64,000 nt of DNA from positions 1-64,000 of the forward strand of contig JAIRPN010000017.1 in assembly GCA_031256975.1 (NCBI GenBank), given 5' to 3'. A model generated the notes under the pieces. That model saw only the letters and a program-made list of their open reading frames with translations. It was not told where the DNA came from and did no database searches. The translations under genes were made by a program, and so were the position numbers. This document shows positions 1,283-64,000 of the stretch, piece by piece. Within the stretch, counting starts at the first letter, position 1. Each line of letters opens with the position of its first letter. The DNA comes from Verrucomicrobiales bacterium. Lineage in GTDB: Bacteria; Verrucomicrobiota; Verrucomicrobiia; Methylacidiphilales; JAAUTS01.

Positions 1283-3433
1283 TCAGGCCGCCTGTTCGTG
1301 GATGATGCGGTTGACCACCAATTGCCGGAATTCCTGCGACAGGCTGGCGAAATAGGCGGTGAAGCCGGTCACGCGCACCACCAGGTCCGGGTATTTTTCC
1401 GGATGCAAATGGGCATCGCGGATTTTCCCGGCGTCGACAATGTTGATGTTGATCAGGGTGCCGCCAAGGGCGAAGTGGGACTTGATCAGGTTGCCGACCA
1501 CGGCCTTGGCGTTGGGCGAACGCCCGGAGCAGGGGTCCACTTCCAGTTGCAGGGGAGCGGTGTTGCCGTAACCGGGCTGCACCTCCGCGACGGCCTTGAC
1601 GATGGCGGTCAGCGCGCCGTCCTTGCGAAAGCCGGGATGCGGATTGGCCCCGTGTGAAATGGGCTCGAGGGCCTTGCGCCCGTTGGGAGTGGCGCCGACG
1701 TTTTTGCCGAAGCGCACTGTGTCGGCCCATGAAAACCAGCCGGGGATCAAATTGCGGCCGCCCGGCGTCGCCGAGGCCTTTACGCCGGAGGTGAACAGTC
1801 CGGTGAGTTGCTCCGCCCATTGGTCGCCAAGGGAATGCCCGTGCCCGAAGCGGGGCGAGCCCGCCAGGATAAGCCGGATTTTTTCACCTTCCGTCCCGGC
1901 GAAATTGGTCGCCAGGGCCTGCGCGACCTCCTGCCAGCTGAGCCGTTTTTCACGCTCGATGCGTTGTTCCAGCGCGGCGAAGGAATCGGCGACCGTGGCA
2001 AGCCCGGCGCCGTCGATGCACATGTTGTAAAAATCAACCCCGCCGTGCGAGGCATCGCGGCCGCGCTCGATCGGGCCGTGGCAGAGCAGGTTCAGCAGCA
2101 GTTCCGGCTCGTTCAGGTATTGGTGATCGAGGTGAAAATCAATGCCGCGCGCGGTGCAGAGGATGGCGCGCTTGAGATGGCTTGAAAAAAGCCCGAACAG
2201 TTTTTCCGTGGAGGGTTCGGGTTGGGTCATGATTTCCTTGAACGCGACTTCAAACACCCTGGCGATATTGATTTTCACCACATCGTTCAGCGTGTATTCG
2301 CGGCCGGGAAGGCTCATCCAGTTGCAGCCGACGGCAATGCGCTCGCGGGCGAGCTCGGCATCAAAGCCGTTTTTCATAAAACCGGCGACCAGGGCCTTGT
2401 CGCCGGAAAAGCGCGGGAAGCCGAGCTGGTGGGTGAACAGGATATCGATGCCCCGCCAGAACAGTTTTTCGTCCAGCCCGTCGTGCACGCGGATGGTGAC
2501 GTTGCAACTGATTCTGAGCAGGTCCGCGGCGTCCAGGATCAGGAAGGACAGGCGCGAAGTCTGGTCGCGCCCGGTTTTGTCCGGGCCGCCGATTTGATAG
2601 TAATGCGGGTCGTTGAGCAGCAGGCAGGCGATGTAGTAGGTGGCGTCCTCATCGTCGATGATGCCCTCGGCGATATCGTGCTCGTAATAGGGACGCAGCA
2701 ATTCGTCTAGCTGCCCGCCCGCGCCGTCGCGGTTGTAAGTGCGCGAGGCCATGTTGAACCAGGCCAGCCATTGGCAGCATTCGCGCAGGGTTGCGGGCGG
2801 CAACTCGACCAGGTGTTCGTTTACCGCGGCGAGCGCTTCCAGGTTTTCACGCTGCAGGGGATTTTCCGCCTTGGCCGCCAGTGCCAGGGCCTGCGCGGCG
2901 GTGCGGGCCATCCAATTTTGCACGCCGCTGATGGCGTCGAGTTCCGCCTGCAATAATTCCGTCGCCTCTTTGTCACCGGCGTGCCGGAGCAGCGATTCCT
3001 GCACCCTGCGTTTCAGGCCGCCCCAGCCCAGTTTCAGGCCGATCCGGTAATCGGGGGCGAAATGCGCGTCGCCGCCAATCCCGGCGGTGATGTCATACAG
3101 CCGCTGCTCGTCTTCCAGGTGCGAATAGTCGAACGGGAACGGCGGGCGGTCGAGCCGGTACTGCGGGCGCATGCGCGACAGCATGAACATCCAGCGTCCG
3201 GCCAGCGCGTCGTCCGGGTCCAGGTAAACGGGGTGATGCTCCATCAATGAACGGAATACTTTTCCCCATGCCGCCGCGCCCTGAAAATTGTCCCCCGGCT
3301 GCCAGTCAAAGTTTTCCGGCGGCAGCACAAAGCCGTAATCGTCCTCGTCCTGCGGCCCCATCCGGTCGAGTTTTTCGCGGGTTTGTTTCAGTTTGCGCTC
3401 ACGCAAGCGTTCCAATTGGCTGCTGTATTTCAT
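1283..3433 (-). CDS. Glycyl radical enzyme of the PFL family, unassigned subclass (716 aa)
   Basis: The C terminus carries the glycyl radical loop R687-V-T-G690-F, where the stable radical would sit. The thiyl-radical cysteine is most likely C370 in AVGCNWMSLPG. Pyruvate formate-lyase has two adjacent cysteines here, and the dehydratase and decarboxylase members have C-x-E. This protein has neither (C-N-W), so its reaction cannot be taken from those subclasses. Other family hallmarks are IGGPDKTGRDQTSRLSF (281-297) and GATPNGRKALEPISHG (580-595). The start is supported by GAGGAA five bases upstream of ATG and lies inside the end of the activase gene (35-bp overlap). Context (GH2, PL22-like lyase) suggests a sugar-derived substrate; that is inference. 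Confidence 0.9.
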   Translation of the reverse strand: MKYSSQLERLRERKLKQTREKLDRMGPQDEDDYGFVLPPENFDWQPGDNFQGAAAWGKVFRSLMEHHPVYLDPDDALAGRWMFMLSRMRPQYRLDRPPFPFDYSHLEDEQRLYDITAGIGGDAHFAPDYRIGLKLGWGGLKRRVQESLLRHAGDKEATELLQAELDAISGVQNWMARTAAQALALAAKAENPLQRENLEALAAVNEHLVELPPATLRECCQWLAWFNMASRTYNRDGAGGQLDELLRPYYEHDIAEGIIDDEDATYYIACLLLNDPHYYQIGGPDKTGRDQTSRLSFLILDAADLLRISCNVTIRVHDGLDEKLFWRGIDILFTHQLGFPRFSGDKALVAGFMKNGFDAELARERIAVGCNWMSLPGREYTLNDVVKINIARVFEVAFKEIMTQPEPSTEKLFGLFSSHLKRAILCTARGIDFHLDHQYLNEPELLLNLLCHGPIERGRDASHGGVDFYNMCIDGAGLATVADSFAALEQRIEREKRLSWQEVAQALATNFAGTEGEKIRLILAGSPRFGHGHSLGDQWAEQLTGLFTSGVKASATPGGRNLIPGWFSWADTVRFGKNVGATPNGRKALEPISHGANPHPGFRKDGALTAIVKAVAEVQPGYGNTAPLQLEVDPCSGRSPNAKAVVGNLIKSHFALGGTLININIVDAGKIRDAHLHPEKYPDLVVRVTGFTAYFASLSQEFRQLVVNRIIHEQAA

Positions 3434-4340
3434 GATGTTCCTCGGTTCCGTTGATCAAAAGTTTCATGCCTGCGGACAATGCCGTATCGGCAAGCAGGCG
3501 CAGGGTTTCCGCGTCGGGCGCACGAAGCCGGGGCGCGGGCAGGCCGAGCGCCGCGTATTTCCCGGTGCCGAGCGGGTGGTAGGGCAGGAATTCGTAATAA
3601 AGCAAATGCCGCAAGGGCTTCAGCACGGCGACGATTTTTTCGATTTCCGCGACGGAGTCATTGATCCCGGCAATCAGCGGTGTGCGGGCGATCAGCGCTT
3701 TGCCGGAACGGTTGAGCAGGGCGAGATTTTTGAACAGCCAATGATTGTCCGCGCCCGTGTACCGGCGGTGAAGCCCGGAGTCAAAGGCCTTGATATCGAA
3801 GATGACCAGGTCCAATGCGGGCAGCAGGGGTTCCAGTCGCGACCACGGGTAACACAGGGTGGTTTCAATTGCCGTATGAATACCTGCGTTGCGGCAGGCT
3901 TGCAGAATTTCCCGCGCGAATTTCGCCTGGATGACCGGTTCGCCGCCGGACAGGGTGACCCCGCCGCCTTCATGGTAAAAGGCCTCATCCTCGAGGATTT
4001 CCGCCATGACTCCTTCGACCTTCATTCGTTTGCCGGCAATACGGAGCCCGGAGGCCGGGCAGCGGCCGGAACAGATGCCGCAGGCGCGGCAATGCTCGCG
4101 CGCGATCCTGTGACTGCCGTTTGAATCAAAATGATGGTTTTGTTCCGGGCAAACTTCCACGCATTCACCGCAGCCGATGCAGTTTTGCGCGTAAAACAAC
4201 AGCTCGGGCGACAAGCCGATGGTTTCCGGATTGTGGCACCAGGCGCAATGCAAGTGACAGCCCTTCAGAAACACGGTGCTGCGGATGCCCGGCCCGTCAT
4301 GCAGGGAAAAGCGCTGGATGTCCGTGACGATGCCGGTCAT
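3399..4340 (-). CDS. Glycyl radical enzyme-activating protein, radical SAM (313 aa)
   Basis: This iron-sulfur enzyme would use S-adenosylmethionine to form the glycyl radical on the enzyme encoded next to it. The radical SAM motif is C28-HLH-C32-AW-C35. An inserted ferredoxin-like segment has two four-cysteine sets (C54, C57, C60, C64 and C84, C87, C90, C94), typical of activases outside the pyruvate formate-lyase group. TLSGGEP at 129-135 is the conserved SAM-binding GGE element. The start is at 4340 because MTGIVTDIQRFSLHDGPGIR is the usual N terminus and this ATG overlaps the upstream stop as ATGA. The reading frame extends 21 codons further upstream, but that part lies inside the GH2 gene. 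Confidence 0.95.
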   Translation of the reverse strand: MTGIVTDIQRFSLHDGPGIRSTVFLKGCHLHCAWCHNPETIGLSPELLFYAQNCIGCGECVEVCPEQNHHFDSNGSHRIAREHCRACGICSGRCPASGLRIAGKRMKVEGVMAEILEDEAFYHEGGGVTLSGGEPVIQAKFAREILQACRNAGIHTAIETTLCYPWSRLEPLLPALDLVIFDIKAFDSGLHRRYTGADNHWLFKNLALLNRSGKALIARTPLIAGINDSVAEIEKIVAVLKPLRHLLYYEFLPYHPLGTGKYAALGLPAPRLRAPDAETLRLLADTALSAGMKLLINGTEEHHEIQQPIGTLA

Positions 4341-47167: not shown

Positions 47168-48493
47168 ATGAAAACCCCAACACGTAGATTAACACTAAGC
47201 GCCGCGCTGCTCGGCGCGCTATTCACCCTCGGTCACCTGTCGCCGGCACAAGCCCAGAACATATGGACCAACACTGGCACCGGCGACTGGGCCTCTGCCA
47301 GCAACTGGAGCCAAGGTGCAGTACCGGGCTACTCTTCGGTCACCGGCACCGCCATCATCGGAAGTCCCGGTTACTTGACTGGCACGGCGGTGCTTTCCTC
47401 CGGTTCCTACACTGCCATCGTGTTGCAACTGGGCCGGGGTAGCAATACCGCCAACGGCTATCTGCGGGTCAACGGCGGAACTTTGGCCGGTCTGAGATCC
47501 ATCGAAATCGGCGGCGCGGTAACCAGTTACAGCGGTGCCAAGGGCACTCTGGAGATTAACAGCGGCCTGGTCACCGGCACCACCACCCAGGTCGGTGTCT
47601 ATGGTCAGGGCGCCCTGTTGCTCAATGGCGGGCGATTGCAAACTGACACGCTGACCCTGGGCGTTAATGCGAACAGCTCCGGTACCCTGATCATCGGCAA
47701 CGACGGCTCGGGCATGATTACCAAACTGGATGGCAGCACCCCCACGACCATCAGCAGCGGCAGTGGCGCCGGGGTGTTGCGGTTTGCCCATAACGGCAAC
47801 ATCCAGTTTGCCAATGCTGTTACTGGTAACGGTATGCTAAACCTTGGCCAAATCCAACTCATCCACGCAGGTTCCGGCACTACGACCCTGACTGGCGGCT
47901 CGGTTAGTGTCTCGAGAGTCTCCGTCACTCGCGGCGAGTTGTCTGTTGCCGCCAATACCACGCTGACCGTGAATAATCAGACGATCGAGGTCGGCTCCGG
48001 CGCCACCTTGAGCGGTGAAGGTGTGATTTCCTCCAATCCGATAGGGATGAACAGCAAGCTGCTGACCATCCAGAGCGGAGGTCATATCGCCGCCACTTTG
48101 GTGGTCAATGTCGGCCTGACCTTGGAAACGGGTGCGGTGCTGGACTATTATGGGGGCAGCGGTCTGGTGCTGGGCGACGGTGGATTTGAGATAAGCCTCG
48201 TCAAAGGAACAAGCACCGTGCAGGTGGACTTCAGCCGCGTTTCCCTGGACTTGGGTTCCTACCACATCATCGACTACGACGCCACCCAGTCCAACAACGT
48301 GGCGACTGACGGCTCCCAATTCAGCGCCATCGGGCTGGGCAGCGAGGTGGAGGGAACGTTCGAAGTGGATCAGATTCATAACCGGCTGGTCTTCACAGTC
48401 ACCGCCGTGCCGGAACCGTCCACTTATTTTCTGCTGGGTGCGGGTCTGGGCCTGATCGGTTTCCTAAAGTTACGTCGCCGCCAGCAATTTTAA
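47168..48493 (+). CDS. PEP-CTERM protein with autotransporter-like beta-helix repeats (441 aa)
   Basis: The signal peptide is LSAALLGALFTLGHLSPAQA. The mature part begins WTNTGTGDWASASNW and continues with Gly/Thr/Asn-rich repeats (YLRVNGGTL, LEINSGLV, LLLNGGRL, LIIGNDGSGMI) that suggest a right-handed parallel beta-helix, as in autotransporter passenger regions. No beta-barrel follows. The C terminus is instead a PEP-CTERM signal (VPEPSTYFLLGAGLGLIGFL then RRRQ). It is therefore a surface protein sorted by exosortase. AAGGAG lies 10 bp before the ATG, the best ribosome binding site of this region. Confidence 0.85.
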   Translation: MKTPTRRLTLSAALLGALFTLGHLSPAQAQNIWTNTGTGDWASASNWSQGAVPGYSSVTGTAIIGSPGYLTGTAVLSSGSYTAIVLQLGRGSNTANGYLRVNGGTLAGLRSIEIGGAVTSYSGAKGTLEINSGLVTGTTTQVGVYGQGALLLNGGRLQTDTLTLGVNANSSGTLIIGNDGSGMITKLDGSTPTTISSGSGAGVLRFAHNGNIQFANAVTGNGMLNLGQIQLIHAGSGTTTLTGGSVSVSRVSVTRGELSVAANTTLTVNNQTIEVGSGATLSGEGVISSNPIGMNSKLLTIQSGGHIAATLVVNVGLTLETGAVLDYYGGSGLVLGDGGFEISLVKGTSTVQVDFSRVSLDLGSYHIIDYDATQSNNVATDGSQFSAIGLGSEVEGTFEVDQIHNRLVFTVTAVPEPSTYFLLGAGLGLIGFLKLRRRQQF

Positions 48494-56195: not shown

Positions 56196-56464
56196 CACCT
56201 TAACAAAGTAAAAGAAGCGGGTTCATTCATCAAGAGATCAGCGAAGGGAGGGGCAATCCGGACAGGCGATTTGAGGTCATTTTCCATTAGAGGAACTACT
56301 GCGGGGGCGGGGTGCCATGTGTTAAAATTAAAAAGATGGCAGTTTGCCGGGAGACAGTGAAACGGGACTTTACAGGGTCCATAAACAGAGTATTAGTTTC
56401 AGCAAGAATAATACGAATTAACTTATTAAATTTCACGGATAGGTCGACGTTGAGCAAGGGGTAT

Positions 56465-56884
56465 ATGGGCAAGGTTTTAGTTATAGTAGATGATATTTCG
56501 GATGTTTTGGTTCCGCTCGGTAAATTATTTAAAACCCAAGGGTATGAGGTGCATACCTTTCTCAATCCTCTGGCGGCCCTGCACTTTATCCGCAACAACC
56601 CGGCTGATGTGGTGTTATCCGATTATCGCATGCCACAAATGGACGGAGTGACCTTTGCCCGTGTGCTGCGGAATATCGGCTGGACCGGTTCCTTGTTTTT
56701 CATGAGCGGCTACATTGCGGAATTGAACCAGCAGGAATTGATGGGTCTGGGAATCAACGGCATCCTTGAAAAGCCTTTTAATGCGGTGGAACTGATCGAA
56801 TTTGTCACCAGAACCCTGCAGGAGGAAGCCGAGGCTTTGCTTCGTTCGCCCGCCTCCGGCATGCCGAATACTCTCCAGTCTTAG
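56465..56884 (+). CDS. Stand-alone response regulator receiver protein 2 (139 aa)
   Basis: A single receiver domain with D9-D10, D53 in VVLSDYRMPQ, S81 in FFMSGY and K103 in LEKPF, the same positions as receiver 1 at 51157. The two differ mainly at the surface and in the C-terminal tail. ATG at 56465 matches the paralogue; a 51-codon in-frame extension upstream (from 56312) has no homologous content. No kinase or output gene is adjacent. Third positions are more AT-rich than in receiver 1, so the duplication is not recent. Confidence 0.88.
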   Translation: MGKVLVIVDDISDVLVPLGKLFKTQGYEVHTFLNPLAALHFIRNNPADVVLSDYRMPQMDGVTFARVLRNIGWTGSLFFMSGYIAELNQQELMGLGINGILEKPFNAVELIEFVTRTLQEEAEALLRSPASGMPNTLQS

Positions 56885-57253: not shown

Positions 57254-60200
57254 ATGGAATATTGGCATGTAAATTTTTGGAAGAAACAATTTTGCTCCAT
57301 CATCGATGTGATAGGCAGCGGTGGCTATTGTTGCAAGGTTGTCATCAAAAAAAATACCTCGGTCTGCTTGTTGGTGTTATTGCTGTTGTCCGAGATTGCT
57401 GTAACCCGGGGGCAGACGGTGATAAACACGCGCTCCGTAATTCCGGTCAATAGCGGGAGTGTCTTTGATTCCGGAACTGACAGCATAATTATTGCGGCTC
57501 CTTCCTTTGCCGGCAGTGGCGGGGCGGTTTTGGTGAATGACGGCGGAACTTTGAGTCTGGCCGGGAATGTGGCCTTTTCGGGCAATACGGTTACCGGTGC
57601 GGGCGGCAATGGCGGGGCGGTCGCACTGGGTGCCAACACGGCAATTGTCTTGAGTGGTGGGACTTTGATGTTCTCCAACAACCAGAGTGTCGGCGGCAGT
57701 GGCGGGGCGATTTACTCGGCTGCCGATGTTGCCGTGAGCGGTTCGGGAAACTTGGTGCTGGTCCAGAGCAATACGAGCAATTTATCCGGCGGTGCCATTT
57801 ATTCGGGCGGCGGGATCATCATTAGCGGCAGCCTTGGCGGCATGCTTTTTGCTGACAATTATACGAGTGGCAAGGGTGGCGTGATGCGCGCAAACAATGG
57901 TGGAATTACCATAACAAATTTAGCCAATGGCGGTGATTTCATCATACGTAATAATACATCGGGAACAGGCAATTCATCGACCACCGTCACCACCGCGGCC
58001 GGTGCGCTCAGCGCCACGGGCACGGTGCTTATCAATGGCAATTACGACAATCTGGTGTTTCGTGATAACATTGGTTCCCAAGGCGCCGCCATTTATTCTG
58101 ATTCAAATGTTACCATTAGCGGGGAGTTGGCCAGCATCCTGATGACGTCCAATACCGCTTTTAACAGACAGGAGACCGCCGATGGCGCTACGGGGGGAAG
58201 CGGTTTCAGGCTAGGTGGTGGTGGTGGTGGCGTGATTTATGCAAAAGGCTCTGTCACTATTAGCAATACCCTTGCCGGTGGGGGTAGGTTGGAAATCAGT
58301 AACAACAGGGCTTTTTCGGATGGTGGAGCGATATTTGCTCTGGGTTCAATCAATATCTTGGGTAATTATACCGATATTATCATGACCTCCAATACCGCCG
58401 CGGGCAGCCTGGGCACAACTAACAATCCCGCCATGGGCGGCGTATTGAGAACCGGCAGCGGCGGCGCGGCGGGTGTTGCAACCGGCAATAACGTGGTTAT
58501 TGATACTGTCACGACCGGCAGCATGGTCATGCGGGACAACACTGCCGAAAACTTCGGCGGTGTTATTGATGCGGCCTTGGGCACCGGAATAATTATCAAG
58601 GGCACCTATGGCGCGATTAGCGTGACCGGTAATACCAATACGAGATCTGCCGGCGGGGCTTGGGCTGCCGCAAATGACGTGCTTGTGGACGTCTATACGA
58701 GCGGCACTTTTGAGATGAGCCGCAACACGGCGGTTAGCGGCGGTGGCGCAATTGTGGGATATTACTCGGATGCGACCATCCGGGGCACCTATGGTGCCAT
58801 CCGCTTTGATTCGAACGTTTCCAGTGGTAGTGGCGCCCTGGCTGCCAGCAGCGGTGGCTTTGCCGGCGGCGCGATTGTCACGGCGAGCAACTTTGTTTTT
58901 ACGCCAAACGTCGTGTCCGGCATTGAATTCACCAACAACGCGGCCAATTACGGTGGTGCGCTGGCCACCGGCAATGCCGGCAATCTTGTCTTTGGCGGCA
59001 CATCGGCATGGGTGCTGTTCGACAGCAACACCGCCAACTATAACAACGGCCTTGGCGGCGCGATATACGCGGGCAACGGTGGCCTCGCAATCAGCAACAC
59101 CACGGGATGGCTTAAATTTTCGCGCAACATTAGCGGCAACAGTGGCGGCGCGATTTACACCGCCGGCACGCTAACCATGAATGGCAGCTACGGTGACCTG
59201 GTCTTTGATTCCAACACCACGAGCGTGAATGCCGCCCACGGCGGCGCGATATACGCGGGCCGGCTGAACTTTAGTCCGGCCGCCGCCAGCGGCAGCCTTG
59301 CTTTCACGAACAATCGCGCGGGCGGCAGCGGCGGCGCAATATACGTCAATGCGGGTGGCATAGCCATCGGCGGCAGCTACGGCGGATTGTTTATTTCTTC
59401 CAACACTTCCGCGTCCACGGCCGCCAACACGGGTGGCGGTGCGTTTTATGCGGCCAATGCGGCTAGCGGCAGCATCGCGATCTCCGGCAGTTACGGACGC
59501 ATGGAGATTACCGACAACCAGGCGGCGGGCAACGGCGGCGCATTTTACGCGACTGGGAGTGGTGGTATTGATATTGAAGCCATCGTTGATGGCACACTGT
59601 CTGTTTCCCGTAATGCCGGTAATACCGGCGGCGCGTTTTATGCAAACGCCGGCGGCGTGGTCATTGGCGGCACTTATGGCGGTTTGCAAATTTCCGAGAA
59701 TACGGCCGTGACGTCGAATGGCGGCGCGATTTACAGCGCGGGCACCATCACCATTAGCGGCAACTATGGTGCGGGCGGCATCCTTGTCGATTCCAATACC
59801 GCCGGGGCTGTTGGCGGGGCGTTTTACTCCGGAAAGGATGTCATCATTAGCGCCACGACGACCGGTTCGCTCGCCTTCACCAATAACACTTCCGGTGCCG
59901 GCGCCAACAATTACGGTGGTGTGATCTATGCCGCGGGAAATATTCTGGTCGATGGCTCCTATGCCGGATTGCTCGTTCAAAACAATCTCGCCCGCAACGG
60001 TTCTGGCGGTGCCCTTTTCTCCAATGGCGGAACCCTCGCCATTGTCGGCAACTACGGTGTTGGCGGCATTCTGGTTGATTCGAATACCTCTTCTAATTCC
60101 GGCGGCGGACTTTATGGCGGCAACATCGCCGTTAATGCCGTCACGTCCGGCACGATGGCGATTACCAATAATACGGCAGTCACCAGTGGCGGAGCCCTTT

Positions 60201-63200
60201 ATGCCAGTTCCAGTATTTTCATCGGCGGTCAATATGCCGGCATCAAGATCGATTCCAACAAAGTCACCGGAGCCTCGGCCAAGGGTGGCGCCCTTTACGC
60301 GGGCGGCAATGTTACCGTTAGCGCCACCGATGACTTTTCTTTGATAAACAACACCGCTTCCGGTGACGGCGGCGGTATTTATTCCGGCGGCACCTACACC
60401 ATGACCGGCAGCTATGGCGCGATCACGTTCGGCACCAACTATTCCGGCGGCAATGGCGGGGCGATCAATGCGTCGAAAGATATCATCATTAGCGCCACGG
60501 TTGGCGGTGATTTTCTGGTTAACTCCAATACAGCGGCTACCAATGGCGGCGCCTTTTACGCGGGTGGGACCACCACCATCACGGGTAACTATGGCTCGAT
60601 TCTCTTTGCCAACAATGCCGCCAACACCAACGGCGGCGCCATTTACTCCGGCAGTGGGGTCAATATTGGTGTGGTTAGCGGCGGCACTTTGCTCTTTACT
60701 AGTAATACCGCCAAAAGTGGCGGTGCCATCAGTACGGCCCCGACTTCGGGCAGTAGCGGCATCGTTATCAGCAGCACGGTCGCTTCGCTGGTTTTCCTCA
60801 ATAACAGTTCCACCAGCGCCGCGGCAGCAGACGGCGGCGGCGCCATCTATGCTTTCGGTGGTACCGGTGTTTCCATCACCGGCAGTTATGGCAATATTCT
60901 GATAAACTCCAATACCTCGGCGAGTTACGGCGGGTTTATCACCACCAATGCGAGCGGCAGTACTTATGGCGTTACCATCGACACTGTCACCGGCGGCACC
61001 ATGGAAATCAGCAAAAACTATGCGAATACCCAGAGCGGCGGCGCCATCAACACGCAAATGATGGTGATTCGCGGCACTTACGGCGGCATCTTGATTGATT
61101 CCAACACCACGGCGGGTGTCACCGGCGGAGCGTTGAATGCTTCGAAGGACATCCTGTTCGGCGATGCGAATTCCGTTTTTGGTGCTGTTACCATTTCCAA
61201 TAATTATGCTAAGAGCAATGGCGGGGCGTTCAATGCTACCGGCAATATCGCGATTGACGGACTTTACGGCGGCCTGTTGATTCAAAGCAACACCTCCGGC
61301 GGCAATGGCGGAGCGTTTTCCAGCGGCAGCTCCATCACCATCAGCGGCAGCTATGGCAGTCTGTTGATGCAAAACAACACCACCGGGACCGGCATGATTT
61401 ACGGTGGCGTGATGTATGCCAACCGGGGCGACATCAACATCCTCGGCACTTATGGCACGGGCGGGATTACCATTGATTCAAACAAGGCTGGCGGTTCCGG
61501 CGGTGCGTTGATGGCCAGTACCGGTAACATCATTATCAATGTCACCACCTCCGGTGCCCTGGCGATCACCAACAACAGAGGCGGCACGACCAATGCCGCG
61601 GGCAATCTTGGCGGCGCGTTGGCCGCCGGCGCGAACAGTATTTTCATCAGCGGCACTTATGGCAACCTGCTGATCGGCAGCAACACCGCGACCAGCAGCG
61701 GCGGTGCCTTTGTCACTGGCAAGGATACTCTCTTCAACGTCGTCAGCGACGGGGCGTTGACGATCACCAGCAACACTGCCGGTGGTGTCGGGGGAGCAAT
61801 CTATTCCAGCGGCAGCATTGCCTCCAGTTCCACCATCAGTGGCACCTTTGCTGTTACCAATAACCTTTCCGGCACGGCGTCAACCGCTAATGGCGGCGCG
61901 TTCTGGAGCGGCAGTGGCATCGCGATTGACGGACTTTACGGCGGCCTGTTGATTCAAAGCAACACCTCCGGCGGCAATGGCGGCGCATTTTATAACAACA
62001 ATGGCGGCATCGCCATCACCGGCAGCTATGGCTCGATCAGGATTGATTCTAATAAGGCGCTGGCCGGCAAGGGCGGCGCCTTCTATTCCGCTGGCAGCGT
62101 CATCATCAGCGCCACCGACGATTTCTATCTCATCAACAACAGCGCCTCCGGCGATGCGGGCGGCATCTACGCAGGCGGTTCCTATGCGATGACCGGCAGC
62201 TACGGGGGCATATGGATACAGTCCAATACCTCCGGCGGCAACGGCGGCGCGATCAACGCGGCCTCGGACATCAGTATCAATACGACGGTCGGCGGCACCA
62301 TGATGGTTTCTTCCAATCGGGCGGCCAGTAATGGCGGCGCCTTCTACAGCAGCGGCAACATCACCGTCAGCGGCAGTTATGGCGTTATTTTTATTGATTC
62401 CAATACGGCAGGCGGCAATGGCGGCGCAATCTATGCGGGGAGAAATATCCTGATTTCGGCCACCACCGGTGGTTTGCTTGCCATTACGAAAAACCGCGGC
62501 AACGGGTCCTCGGGCGGCGGCGGGCTTTTTAGCAGTGGAAGCATCTATATTGATGGTGATTACAGCGGCTTGCTCATGCAAAGCAACACTGCCGGAACCT
62601 CAGCCGGTGGTGCGATGGTGGCTTCGCATGTCAGTCTGGGTTACATTACAATCGCGGGAAACTACGGCGCTGAGGGGATCAAGATAGACTCGAACTATGC
62701 CGCGACTTCTGGCGGCGCCTCGTATTCTGCAAAAGACACCTTGATCACCGCGAACTCAACGGGAACGTTATTCTTTACCAATAACATCGCAAATGCCAGC
62801 GGCGGTGCCTTCTATGCCGGAGGCGCACTTACACTCGGCGGCTCTTACGGCAGCATGGTGATGGATTCGAACAAGTCGGTGACAAATGGCGGTGCCATTT
62901 ATACGGGTTCCAATCTCACCATCGGCGCCACCAGTGGCAGCCTGGCAATTACCCGCAACAGCTCGGGCCAGGGTGGAGCCCTGTACGGAGGCGTTGTCAG
63001 TCTTACCGGCAGCTATAGCGGCATCCTGATTGATTCCAATACGGCCGCCACGAATGGTGGTGCGATCTATGGAAGCAATGTGATTCTGAATGTCGTGAAT
63101 AATGGCAACTTCGCCATTACCAACAATATCGTGACGGGTTCTTCCAATGCGGGCGGCGGTGCGATTTATTCCAGTGGCAGTGTCGTGATCAGTTCCACCG

Positions 63201-64000
63201 TTGATGGCACCTTGGCAATTACCGGCAACTCTGCCCAGCAGGGTGGTGCGATCTACAGCAGGGGTGATATGGCCATTGGCGGCAGCTATGGAGCGATTAA
63301 TATTAGTCAAAACAAGAGCAGCAGCAGCGGCGGTGCGTTTAGCAGCAGCAACGGCAATCTCTCAATCAGCGCCACGGCGGGTTCTTTGTTGATCCAAAGT
63401 AATACGGCCGCCGGTGCAGCCGGTGCTCTCGGTACAACCGGGGGCACCAATCGTATCAATATCACCGGTTCGTATGGCAATATTGAGATCAGTTCCAACC
63501 GCGCAGGCGGCAACGGCGGCGTGCTTTACACCGGCAATTTCAACTTGGACAGCCTGAGTTCCGGCAGCTTGACGGTAACCAATAACTATGCTGCCGGTTG
63601 GGGTGGTGCTTTCAACGCGGGAAGCACCATGACCATCGCCGGAACCTACGGCTCTGTCTTTATCAATTCCAACACCGCCACCGTCAACGGCGGTGCCGCG
63701 TACGCCGGCAGCATGCTCAGCCTGAACCTCACGGCTCCCACTATTCAAATCAACAACAACAAGGGGAACGGGCAGGGCGGGGCCTTCTACGCCGGTGCGT
63801 TCAGTCTCAACCTTGGCGACAGCAGCACGCTGACCGCGGGTGGCAATACGGCTTCCAGTGACGCTAACGGCGGGTTCCTCTATGCGAGCAGCGGCAGCAT
63901 GCTCTTCAACATTGGCAACAACTCAATCGCGGTTATCGGCGATGCCAACTCGGTCGCCAATCACGCCGATTCCATTGCCGCCGCCAACGGCAACATCAAC
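57254..64000 (+). CDS. Giant Pmp-like repeat adhesin, 3' end outside the window (over 2,240 aa)
   Basis: One open frame runs to the window end. The N terminus is long and unusual: about 35 residues before a hydrophobic signal core (SVCLLVLLLLSEIAVTRGQ). Then come dozens of repeats of about 25-55 residues built from two motifs: GGA followed by I, L, F, M or V (NGGAIY, NGGAFYA) and F/I/L-x-x-N (FTNN, IDSN, FSNN), with I-x-G-x-YG between. GGA[ILV] and FxxN are the defining repeats of chlamydial polymorphic membrane proteins, which are type V autotransporters. The fold should be a parallel beta-helix at the cell surface. Whether it ends in a beta-barrel or a PEP-CTERM signal cannot be seen. Confidence 0.85.
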   Translation, partial: MEYWHVNFWKKQFCSIIDVIGSGGYCCKVVIKKNTSVCLLVLLLLSEIAVTRGQTVINTRSVIPVNSGSVFDSGTDSIIIAAPSFAGSGGAVLVNDGGTLSLAGNVAFSGNTVTGAGGNGGAVALGANTAIVLSGGTLMFSNNQSVGGSGGAIYSAADVAVSGSGNLVLVQSNTSNLSGGAIYSGGGIIISGSLGGMLFADNYTSGKGGVMRANNGGITITNLANGGDFIIRNNTSGTGNSSTTVTTAAGALSATGTVLINGNYDNLVFRDNIGSQGAAIYSDSNVTISGELASILMTSNTAFNRQETADGATGGSGFRLGGGGGGVIYAKGSVTISNTLAGGGRLEISNNRAFSDGGAIFALGSINILGNYTDIIMTSNTAAGSLGTTNNPAMGGVLRTGSGGAAGVATGNNVVIDTVTTGSMVMRDNTAENFGGVIDAALGTGIIIKGTYGAISVTGNTNTRSAGGAWAAANDVLVDVYTSGTFEMSRNTAVSGGGAIVGYYSDATIRGTYGAIRFDSNVSSGSGALAASSGGFAGGAIVTASNFVFTPNVVSGIEFTNNAANYGGALATGNAGNLVFGGTSAWVLFDSNTANYNNGLGGAIYAGNGGLAISNTTGWLKFSRNISGNSGGAIYTAGTLTMNGSYGDLVFDSNTTSVNAAHGGAIYAGRLNFSPAAASGSLAFTNNRAGGSGGAIYVNAGGIAIGGSYGGLFISSNTSASTAANTGGGAFYAANAASGSIAISGSYGRMEITDNQAAGNGGAFYATGSGGIDIEAIVDGTLSVSRNAGNTGGAFYANAGGVVIGGTYGGLQISENTAVTSNGGAIYSAGTITISGNYGAGGILVDSNTAGAVGGAFYSGKDVIISATTTGSLAFTNNTSGAGANNYGGVIYAAGNILVDGSYAGLLVQNNLARNGSGGALFSNGGTLAIVGNYGVGGILVDSNTSSNSGGGLYGGNIAVNAVTSGTMAITNNTAVTSGGALYASSSIFIGGQYAGIKIDSNKVTGASAKGGALYAGGNVTVSATDDFSLINNTASGDGGGIYSGGTYTMTGSYGAITFGTNYSGGNGGAINASKDIIISATVGGDFLVNSNTAATNGGAFYAGGTTTITGNYGSILFANNAANTNGGAIYSGSGVNIGVVSGGTLLFTSNTAKSGGAISTAPTSGSSGIVISSTVASLVFLNNSSTSAAAADGGGAIYAFGGTGVSITGSYGNILINSNTSASYGGFITTNASGSTYGVTIDTVTGGTMEISKNYANTQSGGAINTQMMVIRGTYGGILIDSNTTAGVTGGALNASKDILFGDANSVFGAVTISNNYAKSNGGAFNATGNIAIDGLYGGLLIQSNTSGGNGGAFSSGSSITISGSYGSLLMQNNTTGTGMIYGGVMYANRGDINILGTYGTGGITIDSNKAGGSGGALMASTGNIIINVTTSGALAITNNRGGTTNAAGNLGGALAAGANSIFISGTYGNLLIGSNTATSSGGAFVTGKDTLFNVVSDGALTITSNTAGGVGGAIYSSGSIASSSTISGTFAVTNNLSGTASTANGGAFWSGSGIAIDGLYGGLLIQSNTSGGNGGAFYNNNGGIAITGSYGSIRIDSNKALAGKGGAFYSAGSVIISATDDFYLINNSASGDAGGIYAGGSYAMTGSYGGIWIQSNTSGGNGGAINAASDISINTTVGGTMMVSSNRAASNGGAFYSSGNITVSGSYGVIFIDSNTAGGNGGAIYAGRNILISATTGGLLAITKNRGNGSSGGGGLFSSGSIYIDGDYSGLLMQSNTAGTSAGGAMVASHVSLGYITIAGNYGAEGIKIDSNYAATSGGASYSAKDTLITANSTGTLFFTNNIANASGGAFYAGGALTLGGSYGSMVMDSNKSVTNGGAIYTGSNLTIGATSGSLAITRNSSGQGGALYGGVVSLTGSYSGILIDSNTAATNGGAIYGSNVILNVVNNGNFAITNNIVTGSSNAGGGAIYSSGSVVISSTVDGTLAITGNSAQQGGAIYSRGDMAIGGSYGAINISQNKSSSSGGAFSSSNGNLSISATAGSLLIQSNTAAGAAGALGTTGGTNRINITGSYGNIEISSNRAGGNGGVLYTGNFNLDSLSSGSLTVTNNYAAGWGGAFNAGSTMTIAGTYGSVFINSNTATVNGGAAYAGSMLSLNLTAPTIQINNNKGNGQGGAFYAGAFSLNLGDSSTLTAGGNTASSDANGGFLYASSGSMLFNIGNNSIAVIGDANSVANHADSIAAANGNIN
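61247..61311 (+). repeat. 65-bp exact repeat inside the adhesin, unit 1
   Basis: These 65 bases recur exactly at 61919-61983, 672 bp (224 codons) downstream in the same frame; they encode IAIDGLYGGLLIQSNTSG plus flanks. Other repeats of the gene differ at many silent sites, so this identity points to recent duplication or gene conversion. Confidence 0.85.
61919..61983 (+). repeat. 65-bp exact repeat inside the adhesin, unit 2
   Basis: Exact copy of 61247-61311, in frame. Sequence on both sides (GGAF contexts) is similar but not identical, so the converted tract is short. Confidence 0.85.

Follow-up and report, generated by a model that had tools for sequence, protein, structure and literature searches.

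Can a gene in a Verrucomicrobiota genome say anything about where the chlamydial Pmp adhesins came from? Verrucomicrobiota and Chlamydiota share one superphylum, and in the 64,000 nucleotides analyzed here (the window) the original prediction had seen a giant adhesin with Pmp-type repeats that could either show the origin of Pmps or be convergent. The Verrucomicrobiota kinship assumed in that prediction is probable, and congener G013 is labelled as Verrucomicrobiales. The gene (57254-64000, plus strand) is still open at the window end, where residues 1-2249 have been encoded, and runs to contig position C15:76012, giving a product of 6,252 amino acids. We consider it quite likely that this protein is a giant type Va autotransporter with a Pmp-type N-terminal tip, probably adhesive, and that it is an evolutionary chimera; its length, profile matches, barrel, predicted folds, and two homologies within its own genome were computed directly.

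The product begins with a putative long signal peptide (residues 1-54; 57254-57415, plus strand), read by eye as a basic stretch followed by VCLLVLLLLSEIAV. The start codon is uncertain, a hydrophobic stretch was seen, likewise by eye, at approximately residues 37-50, and the sequence suggests cleavage near RGQT. Minus-strand ORFs within the gene (733 aa at 59171-61372) were read as shadow ORFs of the long open frame. The upstream neighbor (56312-56884, plus strand) encodes a response-regulator receiver protein (PF00072) with no shown link to the giant. Elsewhere in the window, 47168-48493 (plus strand) encodes a 441-aa protein with a PEP-CTERM motif.

The predicted alternation of GGA and FxxN-like motifs was confirmed. 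Residues 1-2240 contain 53 GGA[hydrophobic] motifs (shuffled sequences: mean 4.4, maximum 10) and 111 [FILMV]xxN motifs (mean 53, maximum 71); counted strictly, there are 33 GGA[ILV] and 22 FxxN, the FxxN sites being mostly I/L/M/VxxN variants. The motifs are paired, with a modal hxxN-to-GGA distance of 9, a modal GGA-GGA spacing of 29-31, and 27 copies of the exact pair hxxN-5-G[GA]A compared to a shuffle mean of 0.26. Both Pmp profiles that were searched match residues ~89-2215 (PF02415, 103.6 bits, E = 5.7e-31; TIGR01376, 224 bits, E = 1e-68), and these matches, together with the spacing, delimit a Pmp-type repeat region of ~70 rungs of 29-31 residues (residues 89-2215; 57518-63898, plus strand). 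The top single PF02415 match in the gene, at 59294-59347 (plus strand), scored 24.0 bits against a cut-off of 20.6. DNA-level tandem repeats are almost absent from the gene, so the repeats look old rather than freshly amplified. After them, a cap/PATR-like segment starts at 63899-64000 (plus strand; residues 2216-2430 in the full protein) that is collinear with a PEP-CTERM paralogue. The more than 2,200 residues of motifs originally described thus hold for the Pmp block but not for the whole protein, the remainder of which consists of other repeats and a barrel.

Structure prediction, which had been proposed for a repeat block, was applied to 511 residues (560-1070; 58931-60463, plus strand) using AlphaFold2 with an alignment of 11 rows. 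The block was predicted as a regular beta-helix (mean pLDDT 90, pTM 0.92), with the hxxN and GGA motifs sitting in its turns. The modal hxxN-GGA distance of 9 corresponds to a loopless Pmp rung, as implied by the loop splice rule for Pmp rungs in PMC10715098. Foldseek returned no solved structure for the block at E ≤ 0.001, and no convincing hit emerged when the repeat region was compared by sequence against the PDB; these null searches agree with PMC10715098, in which Pmp helices were also without a close PDB match.

The rest of the protein is of a different kind. Profile searches gave PATR and T5SS/PEP-CTERM-associated repeat matches in residues 2251-4500, and the C terminus, which lies outside the window and for which either an autotransporter barrel or a PEP-CTERM signal had been anticipated, matched Pertactin and autotransporter barrel profiles (PF03797, 114 bits; TIGR01414, 170 bits). 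A PEP-CTERM tag was absent in a profile search of the full protein. The barrel model consists of an alpha-helix followed by 12 strands (pLDDT 85.8), with BrkA and EspP as the closest PDB folds (E 2e-16), and the last residue of the protein is Phe. Because its C terminus is a 12-strand autotransporter barrel, the giant is a type Va (classical) autotransporter. Bordetella BrkA/Vag8-type barrels are the nearest solved ones by sequence (BrkA 3qq2, 2e-20), and BrkA also tops the fold matches; BrkA/Vag8-type passengers are not known to contain Pmp-type repeats. The genome encodes the BAM component Omp85 (218 bits) as well as an exosortase.

In type Va secretion, the protein passes Sec via its signal peptide, BAM inserts the barrel, and the passenger exits C terminus first, folding en route. 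The giant would accordingly be exported through Sec, its C-terminal 12-strand barrel would be inserted by the BAM complex, and its ~5,900-residue passenger would be threaded out C terminus first, folding outward as a beta-helix. This order would place the N-terminal Pmp block at the distal end, where its ~70 rungs would span ~34 nm at 4.8 Å per rung, and the product would be a very long surface fiber with Pmp-type repeats making up the outer third. Judging from Pmps and from other giant passengers of the beta-helix type, the protein is probably adhesive, and its most likely role would be adhesion or aggregation, with the Pmp helix making contact through its surfaces and loops. Loop-based adhesion, which has been proposed for chlamydial Pmps, is more weakly indicated here because the block has short loops (modal hxxN-GGA distance 9). 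No ligand-binding domain was recognized in the giant.

Two relatives of the giant within its own genome are both located on contig C11, ~31 kb or less apart. Residues 3740-6252 are 71% identical (88% in the barrel) to a 3,623-aa autotransporter (C11:22379-33250), which resembles the giant in its C-terminal part but has a different N terminus, without Pmp repeats. Residues 1957-2423 align collinearly, at 36% identity, with residues 27-576 of a 607-aa Pmp-repeat protein (C11:2442-4265, minus strand; also L012). The alignment stops at residue 576, immediately ahead of a PEP-CTERM motif at 577-593; this second relative has the same repeats and cap as the giant, but a PEP-CTERM sorting tag where the giant has its barrel. 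Its neighbor is another protein with a T5SS/PEP-CTERM-associated repeat. From these sequence relationships, the giant looks like a chimera of a Pmp-repeat surface module and the genus’s own giant autotransporter chassis, with fusion as the simplest reading. We infer the direction of fusion and the exact join; the fusion point is bracketed rather than located because residues 2430-3740 had distant (~32%) relatives alone among the proteins compared. The chassis itself is older, because a 6,190-aa protein on contig C2 of the same genome has counterparts 54-71% identical in two congeners and because the barrel has relatives in f11 (L145 and L146, autotransporters of 5.3-5.4 kaa with barrels 45-46% identical to that of the giant). 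Families of the window’s order other than its own were without this barrel, one weak match apart. A further Pmp-repeat protein of this genome, on C17 (L011:3167-8803, plus strand), has 1,878 aa and a PF02415 score of 267 bits, with PATR/Pertactin matches at its end; the contig ends before any barrel.

A chimeric gene could also be produced by assembly, from two similar paralogues in this autotransporter-rich genome, several contigs of which end within autotransporter barrels. We judge such a misassembly highly unlikely, given that the longest exact DNA match to the other own autotransporter loci compared is 49 bases and that the exact matches listed lie within the C-terminal chassis, away from the module junction. 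The frame is, moreover, open over 18.8 kb with no stop, and none of the proteins compared is closely related to the region 2430-3740 described above. Convergence, in which a generic Gly/Asn-rich right-handed beta-helix would happen to fit the Pmp profile, is compatible with the autotransporter part of our reading and is a credible, if unlikely, account of the repeats. It draws on the short repeat unit (19-28 residues), on the substitution of most F positions by I/L/M/V, and on the occurrence of the motifs in predicted beta-helices of differing rung shape from an archaeon, a Phycisphaerae bacterium, and Trichomonas (PMC10715098). However, the 11 further autotransporters of this genome that were tested contain at most one copy of hxxN-5-G[GA]A each, and because these are likewise Gly/Ser/Asn-rich, the pair pattern is not a by-product of composition; the agreement of the modal distance of 9 with a loopless Pmp rung, under the splice rule of PMC10715098, also argues against convergence.

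It is very improbable that the giant descends, as a true orthologue of the Pmps, from a shared ancestor of the PVC group and thereby records the origin of the chlamydial adhesins. The repeat profile, rung spacing, and secretion type are all shared with Pmps, and the common superphylum also counts in its favor. Against orthology, the Pmp middle domain is missing, searches of four congeners, whose genomes are incomplete, found the repeats in none of them at E ≤ 0.001, the C-terminal 2,500 residues come from a local autotransporter family without Pmp repeats, and the repeats themselves extend beyond Chlamydiae, to E. coli and many other groups (PMC10715098). The suggestion that this gene is a clue to Pmp origin was therefore not supported, and a chimeric autotransporter remains our preferred reading.

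How Pmp-like, then, is the giant? Like chlamydial Pmps, it has repeats in which FxxN-like and GGA[ILV]-like motifs are paired at the Pmp rung spacing, and an N-terminal repeat block with a C-terminal autotransporter barrel (PF02415 ... PF03797). Chlamydial Pmps carry the middle domain PF07548 between the two, whereas no PF07548 match was found in the window’s genome (G000) at E ≤ 0.1; because this domain is absent, the giant is Pmp-like and not a canonical Pmp. Chlamydial Pmps are also smaller (roughly 900-1,800 aa versus 6,252), with rungs of at least 27 residues, compared to 29-31 in the giant, and with FxxN where the giant has mostly I/L/M/VxxN. In the giant, unlike in chlamydial Pmps, the Pmp repeats are separated from the barrel by ~3,800 residues taken up by PATR and T5SS/PEP-CTERM-associated repeats.

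Across the phylum, TIGR01376 matched in 42 of 388 genomes and 20 of 199 genera, and it also matched an E. coli control; Pmp-type repeats have been reported from more than 100 non-chlamydial species (PMC10715098). PF07548 exceeded its cut-off in only three of the 388 genomes, all from genus f11/g17. Two proteins of this genus (L114:3007-6147 and L115:575-3643) have Pmp repeats and a barrel together with a weak match to ChlamPMP_M (PMP_M). They share repeats and barrel with the giant, but at ~1,000 aa and nearer to the canonical architecture, and judged by sequence it is these proteins, not the giant, that are the phylum’s nearest approach to Pmps. The same genus also has Pmp repeats with a PEP-CTERM tag. 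We take f11/g17 to be probably Akkermansia, with G169 presumably the A. muciniphila type strain. Autotransporter-barrel proteins have been detected in the A. muciniphila outer membrane (PMC4960237).

The congeners G010 and G012, sister species with genomes of ~3 Mb, have 105 and 99 autotransporter barrels (PF03797), an exceptional gene-family expansion, versus at least 14 in the window’s genome; the latter count is a lower bound because contigs C6, C8, and C13 of G000 start within an autotransporter barrel, of which they retain the final 28-38 residues. In the class survey, none of the other genomes listed exceeded 36 first-look barrel candidates. Very long frames were seen elsewhere too, with a Pmp-repeat match in an open frame of 13,230 aa (G360:C46:49153-49218) and an autotransporter barrel in one of 11,142 aa (G006:C3:874933-875679). 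Congener G013 is the MAG Pc512_bin95; in PMC11707648 the sample code Pc512 stands for the termite Prorhinotermes canalifrons, which makes a gut association probable for at least one congener. The free-living lifestyle mentioned in the original prediction is accordingly no more than an assumption for the window’s organism.

Among the papers available to our literature search, none described giant autotransporters with Pmp repeats from this phylum. With this gene, a very large autotransporter bearing Pmp repeats becomes known from outside Chlamydiota; the combination is new, while the repeats themselves were already known to be widespread. We tentatively propose, at somewhat less than even confidence, that the Pmp-type beta-helix modules of Verrucomicrobiota are surface cassettes swappable between a PEP-CTERM/exosortase tag and an autotransporter barrel, and that the window gene is the product of such a swap. 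As a module, the Pmp repeat can be uncoupled from the Pmp middle domain, and even from the route of secretion. For the question of Pmp origin, the better material would be the Pmp-repeat proteins that weakly match PMP_M and come from what is probably Akkermansia, a culturable gut genus.
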